Assembly: GCF_001713455.1 (NCBI RefSeq)
Contig: NZ_CP016464.1
Location: 4,822,001-4,886,000, forward strand
Direction of reading: 5' to 3'
DNA: 64,000 nt
DNA from: Bosea sp. RAC05
Lineage (GTDB): Bacteria; Pseudomonadota; Alphaproteobacteria; Rhizobiales; Beijerinckiaceae
In this document: one piece after another, positions 55,952 to 61,818 of the stretch
How positions within the stretch are numbered: the stretch's first letter is position 1
Layout of the letters: each line of letters starts with the position of its first letter
Program-made: the position numbers and the translations under genes
The notes under the pieces: model-generated
Database searches by the model: none
The model's input: only the letters and a program-made list of their open reading frames with translations
What the model was told of the DNA's origin: nothing

Positions 55952-57868
<1,917 letters not shown>

Positions 57869-57876
57869 GGCAGCTC

Positions 57877-57927
57877 ACGAATTTTCGTTACCGGGAATAC
57901 GATTTTTCGTGATTCACGAGAATTCGT
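57877..57927. promoter_or_regulatory. enhancer region with three ACGA-N4-TCGT sites
   Basis: Three copies of the dyad ACGA-N4-TCGT occur: 57877-57888, 57899-57910 and 57916-57927, 22 and 17 bases apart (start to start). They are next to the activator gene's start and about 58-108 bases upstream of the -24 element of the divergent operon, the usual place for enhancer-binding protein sites. They are the likely sites for the product of 55952-57868. Confidence 0.75.
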
Positions 57928-57984
57928 CAAGCGCGATCTCGCGCTAAGTCCTTGATGTTTCGTCGCCCATTGCGCTCGGCCGGG

Positions 57985-58000
57985 TTGGCCCGCCGCTTGC
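57985..58000 (+). promoter_or_regulatory. sigma-54 (-24/-12) promoter of the cyanate operon
   Basis: TTGGCCC-GCCGC-TTGC keeps the essential GG (-24) and GC (-12) exactly 10 bases apart. Transcription would begin near 58012, about 40 bases before the binding-protein gene (58053), and the enhancer repeats lie upstream at a suitable distance. Confidence 0.8.
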
Positions 58001-58052
58001 TAAATCCCCTGCAGCGACCAGCCGCCCACTCGATCAGCCGGAGGACACGCGC

Positions 58053-59426
58053 ATGGCCTTGTTCAAGAACCCGTTCGACGCCGACCGCCGCATCCGCCGC
58101 GGCTGCGATTGCGGCCGGCATGAGAGCCAATCCGCGCATGAGCGGGCGATTCGGGCCGAGGCCGTCGAAGTATCCGCGACGGAAGACGGACGCTATCAGC
58201 GCGTCGTCGAGAACGCCGTGATGCGGGCGCTGTTTCCACAGGATGCGCAGCGCCGTTTCTTCCTGAAGCAGGTCGGCGCCTCGACCGCCCTGGCGGCGAT
58301 CTCGAGCCTCTTCCCGCTGGCGGCCGCCACCGAGGCCTTCGCCCAGGCTGTGCCGGAGAAGAAGGACCTCAAGGTCGGCTTCATCCCGATCACCTGCGCG
58401 ACGCCGATCATCATGGCCTCGCCGATGGGCTTCTATGCCAAGCACGGCCTCAACGTCGAAGTGATCAAGACCGCCGGCTGGGCCGTGATCCGCGACAAGA
58501 CGATCAACAAGGAATACGACGCCGCCCACATGCTCTCGCCGATGCCGCTGGCGATCTCGATGGGCGCGGGCTCGAACCCGATTCCCTACACGATGCCGGC
58601 GGTCGAGAACATCAACGGCCAGGCCATCACGCTCGCGATGAAGCACAAGGACAAGCGCGATCCGAAGTCCTGGAAGGGCTTCAAATTCGCCGTGCCCTTC
58701 GACTATTCGATGCACAACTACCTGCTGCGCTACTATCTCGCCGAGAACGGCATCGATCCCGACACGGACGTCCAGATCCGCGCCGTGCCGCCGCCGGAGA
58801 TGGTCGCCAACCTGCGCGCCGACAACATCGACGGATTCCTCGCGCCCGATCCGGTCAACCAGCGCGCGGTCTTCGACGGCGTCGGCTTCATCCACATGCT
58901 CTCCAAGGAGATCTGGGACGGCCATCCCTGCTGCGCCTTCGCAGCCTCCAGGGAGTTCGTGACGCAGACCCCCAACACCTATGCCGCGCTGCTCAAGGCG
59001 ATCATCGACGCGACCGCCTTCGCCTCCAAGGCCGAGAACCGGAAAGCCATCGCCGAGGCGATCGCGCCGGCCAACTACCTCAACCAGCCCGTCACCGTGG
59101 TCGAGCAGGTCCTGACCGGGACCTATGCGGACGGGCTCGGCAACATCAAGCGCGACCCCAAGCGGATCGATTTCGACCCCTTTCCCTGGGAGGGTTTCGC
59201 GGTCTGGATTCTCACCCAGATGAAGCGCTGGGGCCAGATCAAGGGCGATGTCGACTACGCCAAGGTGGCCAAGGAGGTCTTCCTCCAGACCGACACGGCC
59301 AAGCTGATGACCGAGGTCGGGCTGGCGCCGCCCACCGGCTCGAAGACCATCGTCGTGATGGGCAAGACCTTCGATGCCACCAAGCCGGAGGACTACATCA
59401 AGAGCTTCGCGATCAAGCGGACGTGA
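58053..59426 (+). CDS. cynA: CmpA/NrtA-family ABC substrate-binding protein (cyanate/nitrate type, CynA-like)
   Basis: A 457-aa receptor. It has an unusual 65-residue N-terminal extension with a Cys/His motif (C18, C20, H23, H29 in GCDCGRHESQSAH), then a twin-arginine motif RRFFLK (67-72), a hydrophobic segment and a cleavage site near AQA (97-99). The mature part VGFIPITCATPIIMA and later DGFLAPDPVNQRAVFDG are typical of CmpA/NrtA/CynA. Location upstream of cyanase suggests cyanate or nitrate uptake. GGAGG stands 8 bases before ATG 58053. The function of the extension is unknown. Confidence 0.85.
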   Translation: MALFKNPFDADRRIRRGCDCGRHESQSAHERAIRAEAVEVSATEDGRYQRVVENAVMRALFPQDAQRRFFLKQVGASTALAAISSLFPLAAATEAFAQAVPEKKDLKVGFIPITCATPIIMASPMGFYAKHGLNVEVIKTAGWAVIRDKTINKEYDAAHMLSPMPLAISMGAGSNPIPYTMPAVENINGQAITLAMKHKDKRDPKSWKGFKFAVPFDYSMHNYLLRYYLAENGIDPDTDVQIRAVPPPEMVANLRADNIDGFLAPDPVNQRAVFDGVGFIHMLSKEIWDGHPCCAFAASREFVTQTPNTYAALLKAIIDATAFASKAENRKAIAEAIAPANYLNQPVTVVEQVLTGTYADGLGNIKRDPKRIDFDPFPWEGFAVWILTQMKRWGQIKGDVDYAKVAKEVFLQTDTAKLMTEVGLAPPTGSKTIVVMGKTFDATKPEDYIKSFAIKRT

Positions 59427-59452
59427 GTCGCGTGATGTCGCGCGAAGCGCCA

Positions 59453-59539
59453 ACCGTCATTGCGAGCAAAGTGAAGCAATCCAGCGCCTCGCGCCGACGC
59501 TGGATTGCTTCGTCGGCTGCGCCTCGTCGCAATGACGGT
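59453..59539. repeat. intergenic palindromic repeat (REP family)
   Basis: CGTCATTGCGAGC...GAAGCAATCCAGCG on the left mirrors CGCTGGATTGCTTCG...CGCAATGACG on the right, making an almost perfect hairpin of about 87 bases. This sequence family is common in Hyphomicrobiales. It lies inside the cyanate operon between the binding-protein and permease genes. Confidence 0.88.
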
Positions 59540-59550
59540 GGAGTCCTGAC

Positions 59551-60396
59551 ATGACCCTCCCTCTCAACCTGCGCGCGCTGGTGCTCTCGCTGGCGATCCT
59601 CGTCGTCTTCCTCACCGCGTGGCATGTCGGCACGCAGTCCGGCGGGGCCGGGCCTGCCGCCAACATCGACCCCGAATACGCCAAGCTGATGGGCCAGCAG
59701 GTGACGCAGGGCAAATCGGCCATGCCCGGCCCGCTCGACGTCGCCGCGACGATCTGGGGACACCTGCGCGACCCGTTCTACGACAAGGGCCCCAACGACA
59801 AGGGGCTCGGCATCCAGCTCGCCTATTCGCTCGGCCGCGTCCTGCTCGGCTATGCCTTCGCCGTGCTGCTCGCGGTCCCGCTCGGCTTCCTGATCGGCAT
59901 GTCGCCGCTGATCTCGAAGGCGCTCGACCCGTTCATCCAGGTCCTGAAGCCGATCTCGCCCTTGGCGTGGATGCCGCTCGCGCTCTACACGATCAAGGAT
60001 TCCAGCGTCTCCGCGATCTTCGTGATCTTCATCTGCTCGGTCTGGCCGATGCTGCTGAACACGGCCTTCGGCGTCTCCGCCGTGCGCAAGGAGTGGCTCA
60101 ACGTCGCCCGCACGCTCGAGGTCGGGCCGGTCCGGCGCGCCTTCACGATCATCCTGCCGGCGGCCGCGCCGACCATCCTGACCGGCATGCGCATCTCGAT
60201 CGGCATCGCCTGGCTCGTCATCGTCGCGGCCGAGATGCTCGTGGGCGGCACCGGCATCGGCTACTTCGTCTGGAACGAGTGGAACAACCTCTCGATCACC
60301 AATGTCATCGTCGCCATCACCGTCATCGGCGTGATGGGCATGATCTTGGACCAGACGCTCGCCCGCCTGCAGCGCGCCGTGACCTATCCGGATTGA
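59551..60396 (+). CDS. cynB: ABC transporter permease (CynB/NrtB-like)
   Basis: A 281-aa inner-membrane permease with about six helices. The EAA-like loop follows SVWPMLLNTAFGVSAVRKEWLNVARTLEVGPVRRAFTIILPAAAPTI, as in NrtB/SsuC-type permeases. It follows the binding-protein gene after the REP repeat. It ends 4 bases before the ATPase gene. Naming as CynB rests on the adjacent cyanase gene. Confidence 0.83.
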   Translation: MTLPLNLRALVLSLAILVVFLTAWHVGTQSGGAGPAANIDPEYAKLMGQQVTQGKSAMPGPLDVAATIWGHLRDPFYDKGPNDKGLGIQLAYSLGRVLLGYAFAVLLAVPLGFLIGMSPLISKALDPFIQVLKPISPLAWMPLALYTIKDSSVSAIFVIFICSVWPMLLNTAFGVSAVRKEWLNVARTLEVGPVRRAFTIILPAAAPTILTGMRISIGIAWLVIVAAEMLVGGTGIGYFVWNEWNNLSITNVIVAITVIGVMGMILDQTLARLQRAVTYPD

Positions 60397-60400
60397 GGCG

Positions 60401-61285
60401 ATGAGCGACCGTTACATCTCGATCGAAGGCATCGCCCGCCGCTACCCGAAGGCCGGCGGCGGCACCACCACCGTCTTCGAGGACCTCTGGTTCTCGATGA
60501 GGAAGGGCGAGTTCGTCTGCGTCATCGGCCATTCCGGCTGCGGCAAGACAACCGTGCTCAACATCCTCAACGGGCTCGACGCGCCCGATGACGGCGCGGC
60601 CATCGTCGACGGCAAGGCGATCGAGGGCCCTTCGCTCGACCGCGCCGTGATCTTCCAGGGCCATTCGCTGCTGCCCTGGCGCAGCGTGCTCGGCAATGTC
60701 GCCTATGCGGTCGCCGCCAGGCATCGCGACTGGCCAAGGGCGAAGGTGACGGCGCATGCCATGGCCTTCATCGAGAAGGTCGGCCTCAAGGGCTCGGAGC
60801 TGAAGAAGCCCTCGGAACTCTCCGGCGGCATGAAGCAGCGCGTCGGCATCGCCCGCGCGCTCTCGATCGAGCCCAAGATGATGCTGATGGACGAGCCCTT
60901 CTCGGCGCTCGACGCGCTCACCCGCGGCACGCTGCAGGACGAGGTTCGCCGCATCTGCCTGGAGACCGGCCAGACCGCCTTCATGATCACCCATGACGTC
61001 GACGAGGCGATCTATCTCGCCGACCGCATCGTGCTGATGACCAACGGTCCGCAGGCGATGATCGCCGAGATCGTCGAGAACCCGCTGCCGCGCGATCGCA
61101 TCCGCAGCGAGGTCCACCACCACCGCGACTACTACGCCATCCGCAACCACCTGATCGACTTCCTGGTGGTGCGCTCGAAGAGCTTCCGGGACGACATTCC
61201 CGAGGGCTACGACCGCCGCCATCCGCCGATCGTGCGACCGGGCGCCGACGGAACCGGCCCCGACGCCGGCCGCAAGGCGGCCTGA
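60401..61285 (+). CDS. cynD: ABC transporter ATP-binding protein (CynD/NrtD-like)
   Basis: A 294-aa ATPase. Walker A is GHSGCGKTT near residue 45, the signature LSGGMKQR near 140 and Walker B LLMDEPFSALDALTR near 160, with the His in MITHDVDEAIYLADRI. It matches SsuB/TauB/NrtD-type ATPases. It starts 4 bases after the permease gene, and the cyanase gene follows 44 bases later. It powers import by the CynA/B-type transporter. Confidence 0.87.
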   Translation: MSDRYISIEGIARRYPKAGGGTTTVFEDLWFSMRKGEFVCVIGHSGCGKTTVLNILNGLDAPDDGAAIVDGKAIEGPSLDRAVIFQGHSLLPWRSVLGNVAYAVAARHRDWPRAKVTAHAMAFIEKVGLKGSELKKPSELSGGMKQRVGIARALSIEPKMMLMDEPFSALDALTRGTLQDEVRRICLETGQTAFMITHDVDEAIYLADRIVLMTNGPQAMIAEIVENPLPRDRIRSEVHHHRDYYAIRNHLIDFLVVRSKSFRDDIPEGYDRRHPPIVRPGADGTGPDAGRKAA

Positions 61286-61329: not shown

Positions 61330-61818
61330 ATGAAGCGCGAAGAGCTCACCGAGAAGATCCTCGACATCAAGCGCGAGAAGGGCTGGAGCTGGAAATACAT
61401 CACCGAAGAGATCGGCGGCATGTCCGAGGTGCTGATCGTCGGCGCCCTGCTCGGCCAGATGAAGCTGGTCAAGCCGCTGGCCGAGAAGGCCGCCGCCCTC
61501 TTCGGCCTGACCGAGAACGAGAAGCGCATGCTCAACGAGGTGCCCTATCGCGGCACCGGCACGCCGATGCCGCCGACCGACCCGCTGATCTACCGCTTCT
61601 ACGAGATGGTGATGGTCAACGGCCCGGCCTGGAAGGCGCTGATCGAGGAAGAGTTCGGCGACGGCATCATGTCGGCGATCGACTTCAACATCGAGTTCGA
61701 GCGCGAGCCGAACCCGAAGGGCGACCGCGTCAAGATCGGCATGTCCGGCAAGTTCCTGCCCTACAAGTACTACGGCAACGAGCAGGGCATCCCCGATTAC
61801 GGCTTCAAGGAAGCCTGA
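61330..61818 (+). CDS. cynS: cyanate hydratase (cyanase)
   Basis: A 162-aa enzyme that converts cyanate and bicarbonate to carbamate and CO2; carbamate then decomposes to ammonia and CO2. The catalytic triad of E. coli cyanase (R96, E99, S122) is found at R89, E92 and S115 with the same spacing, in YRFYEMVMVNG and GIMSAIDFN. The C-terminus is a few residues longer (ending YGFKEA). AAGGAG precedes the ATG. It ends the operon; the convergent DUF3422 gene stops 18 bases away. Confidence 0.96.
   Translation: MKREELTEKILDIKREKGWSWKYITEEIGGMSEVLIVGALLGQMKLVKPLAEKAAALFGLTENEKRMLNEVPYRGTGTPMPPTDPLIYRFYEMVMVNGPAWKALIEEEFGDGIMSAIDFNIEFEREPNPKGDRVKIGMSGKFLPYKYYGNEQGIPDYGFKEA

Follow-up and report, generated by a model that had tools for sequence, protein, structure and literature searches.

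The window analysed here, a 64,000-nucleotide stretch of the Bosea sp. RAC05 genome, contains a cynABDS operon with the cyanase gene at its end and an activator gene transcribed divergently from it (Table 1). The activator-cynA intergenic region measures 184 bp and accommodates three ACGA-N4-TCGT dyads and one GG-N10-GC promoter. An rpoN gene is present in the Bosea sp. RAC05 genome.

Table 1. Genes and predicted control elements of the cyn locus, in window coordinates.
Feature	Position	Strand	Remarks
cynF-type activator	55952..57868	-	GTG start; PAS, PAS, AAA+ with GAFTGA (residue 387), Fis/FhlA-type HTH
enhancer dyad I, ACGAATTTTCGT	57877..57888	.	exact match, conserved
enhancer dyad II, ACGATTTTTCGT	57899..57910	.	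22 bp from dyad I, spacing conserved
sigma-70-like cynF promoter (TTGACG, 17, AAAAAT)	57902..57930	-	on dyads II and III
enhancer dyad III, ACGAGAATTCGT	57916..57927	.	17 bp from dyad II, spacing conserved
IHF-like site CATCAAGGACTTA	57945..57957	-	1 mismatch to WATCAANNNNTTR; between enhancer and promoter
-24/-12 sigma-54 promoter TTGGCCCGCCGCTTGC	57985..58000	+	GG-N10-GC; dyad III start to TGG, 70 bp
cynA, substrate-binding protein (NMT1_2, NMT1-type SBP)	58053..59426	+	
cynB, ABC permease	59551..60396	+	
cynD, ABC ATPase	60401..61285	+	
cynS, cyanase	61330..61818	+	TIGR00673 over cut-off

A preliminary description of this DNA had credited the activator with PAS domains, a GAFTGA motif and a Fis-type HTH, and all of these were found, the first PAS and the HTH falling just under their cut-offs in this protein. 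The AAA+ sigma-54 domain carries Walker A and B motifs as well as GAFTGA. A single PAS, at residues 155-273, scored over the Pfam cut-off; the N-terminal PAS exceeded it in six of seven orthologues tested, the seventh (L049) giving no match. The HTH (PF02954) was matched at E 3.6e-4 with 20.6 bits, against a curated cut-off of 22, and 36 of 56 aligned orthologues hit HTH_8 with E values of 1e-3 or lower. Within the second PAS (residues 194-218), His198, His202 and Cys216 are invariant in all 56 aligned activators and His203 is kept in 55; the three invariant residues are a candidate sensor site, possibly a metal, haem or cyanate-reactive one. Comparison by sequence with solved structures matched PAS sensors and AAA+ activators and no full-length relative.

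The three dyads had been placed at 57877, 57899 and 57916, and these coordinates proved exact to the base. They are the only matches to ACGANNNNTCGT in the 64 kb (0.9 expected) and all lie inside 51 bp; three or more matches anywhere in 64 kb were seen in 8 of 100 shuffles. Three dyads within the 184-bp region arose in none of 5000 dinucleotide shuffles, and at least one dyad in 19 of the 5000 shuffles of a second dinucleotide set. The whole genome (5.62 Mb) has 36 dyads versus 66 for the reversed-pattern control, and dyads separated by 5-28 bp occur at this locus alone. The 12-mer dyad is not rare genome-wide; its clustering is. Inspection of 7 of the 33 other dyads revealed no array and no activator beside them, and several of the seven fall within long open frames. 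The activator's GTG start lies 9 bp from the beginning of dyad I, which is upstream of it, so the promoter of the activator gene probably overlaps the array too. A perfect inverted repeat (AGCGCGA-TC-TCGCGCT) was also noted at 57930-57945, close after dyad III, and was not seen in two near relatives (L002 and L003) read by eye.

The -24/-12 promoter proposed at 57985 was confirmed as GG-N10-GC, with the exact GG/GC spacing claimed for it. It scored 13 of 14 points against the TGGCACG and TTGC boxes of the sigma-54 consensus, and it and two other sites in the 64 kb differ from TTGGCACGNNNNTTGC at no more than one position. Allowing three mismatches gave 45 sites in the 64 kb versus 60 expected, no commoner than chance. 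Since the match alone is not beyond chance in 64 kb, the promoter call rests on place and conservation. For cynF itself, one sigma-70-like promoter was found versus a mean of 0.1 in shuffles. Its position on dyads II and III suggests CynF autorepression, which is likely at least in this genome. A conserved cynF -35 element over dyad III was considered and rejected, the TTGACG half occurring in only 5 of 99 loci. Sites with at most one mismatch to the IHF consensus WATCAANNNNTTR lie between dyads and promoter in 27 of 81 loci versus 50 of 810 shuffles, an enrichment that is only moderate.

Searches by protein (E cut-offs of 1e-120 or 1e-140) detected the activator in 8 of 149 family, 19 of 385 class and 21 of 398 phylum genomes, samples that overlap. 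They gave 41 loci, including the window's own, of which 32 have cynA divergent within 1.5 kb. Those 32 contain 60 exact dyads, whereas 300 shuffles gave a mean of 0.14 and a maximum of 3, and ACGA with a gap of 4 ranked first among 256 arms and 13 gaps. At least one exact dyad is present in 27 of the 32 loci, at least two in 23 and three in 10; the loci are related by descent, and these counts are not independent events. Dyads are thus kept in most orthologous loci, as a check suggested in the preliminary description had asked, and this conservation supports its proposal that a dedicated sigma-54 activator acts here through enhancer repeats of its own. Loci with a single exact dyad (L009, L017, L018 and L023) have one-mismatch dyads 22, 17 or 38 bp away. 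Exact dyads are absent from five of the 32 loci (L020, L021, L022, L024 and L025): L025 has a pair of one-mismatch dyads 17 bp apart, while one-mismatch dyads were found neither in L020, L022 and L024 nor in the 59 bp scanned of L021, whose whole locus lacks an exact dyad. GAFTGA is retained in L020, L022, L024 and L025 together with -24/-12 matches of 13-14 points (L021 was not scored there). Because these four dyad-less loci keep both GAFTGA and a strong promoter, some relatives must, to judge from the sequences, use another or a decayed operator. Nine of the 41 loci have no cynA nearby. Six of them (L032-L034, L036-L038) still have dyads, beside cynS, an FNT transporter or both, or beside a nit1C-like cluster; in the other three (L039-L041) the activator match begins only at about residue 143-156 and there are no dyads at the gene start.

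The arrangement of dyads and promoter was compared across 103 CynF-like activators (aligned from residue 60 or before to residue 600 or beyond, at least 480 bits), most of whose loci had been chosen by dyad pattern. The geometry set comprised 96 of these, four loci without an exact dyad and three with too little DNA being left out. Beyond the last dyad, 82 of the 96 reach a -24/-12 score of 11 or more (maximum 14); the opposite strand does so in 21 of 96, and shuffles in 8%. Measured from the start of the last dyad, TGG lies at 69-72 bp in 44 loci, 79-83 bp in 27 and 91-98 bp in 9, and at 103 and 111 bp in one locus each; the classes step by 11-13 bp, about one turn of DNA. Dyads are spaced by 17 bp (81 times), 18 bp (once), 21-23 bp (38 times) or 38-40 bp (7 times).

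A scan by DNA only, for two dyads with AT-rich cores 17 bp apart, recovered at least 116 loci from a collection of 84,980 species. Among the 116 double-dyad loci listed, 83 have cynA (71), cynS (10) or an FNT gene (2) divergent beside the dyads, and 7 more have a CynF-like activator with its target not in view (six at a locus edge, and L123). The remaining 26 are in other settings, and in 23 of these another sigma-54 activator lies in the locus; the idea that the dyad is a signature of CynF only was accordingly rejected. Nine such loci (L051, L060, L077, L083, L085, L091, L106, L108 and L117) have double dyads beside other sigma-54 activators and belong to Planctomycetes, Verrucomicrobia, Nitrospira, sulfate reducers, Ignavibacteriales and others; carboxymuconolactone-decarboxylase-like, isochorismatase-like and OsmC-like genes were recognized among their neighbours by translation. 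At the level of the class, paired dyads occur in 15 of 385 genomes, namely 10 of 19 with the activator versus 5 of 366 without it, and pairs of the reversed control pattern in 8 of 385 (read from the table).

Targets other than cynABD were also observed. In L032, L037, L038, L052, L084, L105, L138 and L150, a CynF-like activator and the same dyads precede cynS and an FNT-family (formate/nitrite type) transporter, assigned by reading translations, which suggests that an FNT channel may be able to serve cyanate uptake. L033, which is the same locus as L174, has a nit1C-like cluster (NitB-like and nitrilase genes) divergent to an activator of the CynF group, with three dyads spaced by 22 and 18 bp. 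Dyads are absent from a second nit1C-like locus (L175), and nit1C as a general target was rejected, since one of the two nit1C-like loci found has them and the other does not. Locus L056 has two cynA copies, which flank a cynF-like gene on both sides.

A midpoint-rooted tree with 82 rows, built from the AAA+ and HTH regions, placed 59 of them in a single CynF group (support 99/98). The group includes Pseudomonas, with P. sediminis as a stand-in for the CynF of Pseudomonas pseudoalcaligenes CECT5344; the Bosea and Pseudomonas activators are about 56% identical, by the same stand-in. Cyn, FNT or nit1C genes adjoin 57 of the 59 (L021 included), the other two lying at a locus edge, and the remaining 23 rows are different sigma-54 activators.

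The preliminary description had presented this arrangement as looking like a distinct way of regulating cyanate use, and here it is not supported: the CynF/sigma-54 arrangement is already published, and the claim of novelty was rejected on two articles (PMC6627978; PMC12316311). In CECT5344, cynF is divergent to cynABDS and a sigma-54 promoter is predicted before cynA; a cynF mutant loses cyanase, cyanate induces and ammonium represses (PMC6627978). That cynFABDS cluster resembles the Bosea locus in its divergent sigma-54-type activator, cynABDS order and predicted sigma-54 promoter, whereas its intergenic gap is 268 bp as compared with 184 bp (PMC6627978). Cyanate lyase likewise appears in a list of sigma-54-regulated genes, which are enriched in alpha- and gammaproteobacteria (PMC12316311). 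Control by CynF and sigma-54 is thus known, and the operator array is what is added here: no operator for CECT5344 was met in the abstract, section 2.1 and further passages of PMC6627978, and none of the form ACGA-N4-TCGT was found in searches of the main text of open-licence papers, where the dyad spellings matched unrelated papers only. The cyn genes of P. mendocina are reported to be 97-98% identical to those of CECT5344 (PMC6627978). The cynF-cynA gap of P. mendocina EF27 (L153) measures 268 bp, equal to the gap printed for CECT5344, and contains three dyads (spacing 23 and 17) and a GG-N10-GC site, TGGTACAGCTCCTGC. A glutamate-synthase-like gene, read from its translation, adjoins cynF in L153.

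A degenerate GAFTGA loop was found in 12 of the 103 CynF-like activators, mostly in Rhodobacterales (GAFPGA, GAFAGA, GAPGGA, GAGPGA, GAYPGS, GAFQGA and GAYPGA; L127 was read from the alignment). At a score of 11.5, a -24/-12 promoter was present in none of these 12 versus 85 of 91 loci with GAFTGA, GAFSGA or GSFTGA (Fisher 1.2e-11, kinship ignored); at a score of 11, two of the 12 had one. Of the six misses among GAFTGA-type loci, two offered no DNA for scanning and another (L149) lay at a locus edge; the four dyad-less loci were scanned over a wider stretch. The dyads of the degenerate-loop loci prove nothing by themselves, because 11 of the 12 had been chosen by dyad pattern. A protein search of 198 genomes in the family of L047 gave 12 with such a CynF, 10 of them new. 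Nine of the ten new loci have an exact dyad and the tenth has two one-mismatch dyads; a dyad pair 17 bp apart is present in eight when one mismatch is allowed and in three exactly. One loop is GAFTGA, eight are degenerate and one was not read, and the best -24/-12 score is 10 or lower in all ten.

We also looked for rpoN, called as PF04552 over cut-off, in genomes some of which are drafts. It was found in none of the first 13 Rhodobacterales-type genomes tested, two of which gave hits below cut-off; these 13 were fetched by dyads and picked for loops or missing promoters (11 of the 12 degenerate cases plus L075 and L097, which have GAFSGA and GAFTGA, respectively, and no promoter). All 17 chosen comparison genomes have rpoN, including L023 with its degenerate loop. 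Three of the ten further genomes chosen by protein have rpoN, two of these with degenerate loops, which weakens a strict co-loss of loop, promoter and rpoN; overall, rpoN was not found in 20 of 23 Rhodobacterales-type genomes. Loop and promoter decay together while the dyads are kept, and rpoN is usually but not always gone. The contrast between broken and intact loops supports the use of sigma-54 at the Bosea locus, where loop, promoter and rpoN are all present. With the dyads largely intact in the Rhodobacterales-type loci found by protein, and rpoN undetected in most of the genomes, sigma-54-independent use of the same enhancer is plausible there; no consistent sigma-70 promoter site was found in these loci. 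L023, with GAYPGA, no -24/-12 and rpoN present, stands apart from the Rhodobacterales group in the tree and is probably an independent loss of the sigma-54 loop.

We conclude, with a probability of roughly 0.87, that a CynF-type sigma-54 operon is controlled from this region, with CynF binding the dyads as an enhancer for cynABDS. The grounds computed here are gene order, exact sites, conservation, geometry, the CynF grouping, rpoN and the joint loss of GAFTGA and promoter elsewhere; the protein-DNA contact, signal, role of IHF, start site and autorepression are steps that we infer. CynF from the divergent gene would bind the three ACGA-N4-TCGT dyads as an upstream enhancer, presumably with one dimer per dyad, and would assemble as an AAA+ ring upon a cyanate-related signal received via its PAS domains. 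With the DNA bent, probably by IHF, the GAFTGA loop would remodel the RpoN-polymerase at the -24/-12 promoter at 57985, and transcription of cynABDS, for uptake and cyanase, would start near 58011. CynF bound at dyads II and III would probably also repress cynF.

In a different reading, the dyads are mainly an autoregulatory operator of cynF and cynA is activated through other sites. The proximity of dyad I to the cynF start, the sigma-70-like promoter on dyads II-III and the closeness of the first dyad to the assigned activator start (60 bp or less in 82 of 99 loci) all agree with it, as do the four loci that keep -24/-12 without exact dyads. The narrow classes of distance from the last dyad to -24 would be needless for autoregulation alone, however, and an unsystematic look between dyads and promoter revealed no conserved element other than the IHF-like site. 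The two roles can coexist, and we regard a mainly autoregulatory operator as improbable.

Less probable still is control of the operon by nitrogen status alone, with the dyads bound by a different regulator such as NtrC. The NtrC consensus differs from the dyad, and the dyads track the adjacent activator (10 of 19 versus 5 of 366 class genomes), staying with it when the target is FNT/cynS or, in one locus, nit1C; the ammonium repression published for CECT5344 (PMC6627978) is what speaks for such a control. Chance palindromes together with a chance GG-GC match in GC-rich DNA would agree with the genomic dyads being fewer than in the reversed control and with -24/-12-like sites being no commoner than chance in the window, but conservation of sites, spacing and position across alpha- and gammaproteobacteria makes this explanation barely credible.

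Among known activators, E. coli FhlA has the same type of C-terminal HTH (GAAxxLGxxxTTLxSRMKxLGI) as the Bosea activator, and the sensor part of FhlA is not PAS. Against the full-length FhlA model PRK15429, the Bosea activator scored 368.5 bits, below the cut-off of 830. A listed FhlA site, CATTTCGTACGAAATG, shares the ACGA/TCGT core with the dyads, but its half-sites are inverted, TCGT-ACGA abutting instead of ACGA-N4-TCGT, and the FhlA signal is formate (PMC4987338). The dyads thus do not have the FhlA operator arrangement, the core being shared and the order inverted. NitA of nit1C is a Fis-family sigma-54 regulator divergent from nitB, as CynF is from its target (PMC11049912); the targets differ, and the nit1C-linked activator of L033 falls in the CynF group with three dyads. 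The broken-loop CynF of Rhodobacterales is paralleled by NtrC of Rhodobacter capsulatus and Caulobacter, which is without GAFTGA and reported to work at sigma-70 promoters (PMC10274813); the NtrC loop is deleted, whereas the Rhodobacterales CynF loop is mostly substituted and its use of sigma-70 would be by analogy.

On balance we lean towards a broader reading, held with clearly less confidence than the main one: that the CynF enhancer outlives its sigma factor, the Rhodobacterales operator having been rewired from sigma-54 to the housekeeping polymerase, and that ACGA-N4-TCGT arrays are a common operator code of activators with FhlA-type helices across several phyla and across cyanate, cyanide-nitrilase, peroxidase-like and other operons. 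The weakening of a strict co-loss does not lower our confidence in an outliving enhancer, because dyads persist in loci not chosen by dyads. Lineages with a broken GAFTGA could then serve as a natural experiment in which a sigma-54 activator turns sigma-54-independent with its binding sites kept. For the published CynF system, the gain would be a precise, testable, predicted binding array, which could be used in pattern searches for cyanate and cyanide regulons and in the construction of cyanate biosensors.

Finally, the gap between cynA and cynB (59427-59550) contains a palindromic element with the sequence CGTCATTGCGAGC and its mirror GCAATGACGG. It is of a kind that occurs as dispersed repeats in Rhizobiales, and it may affect the expression of cynB.
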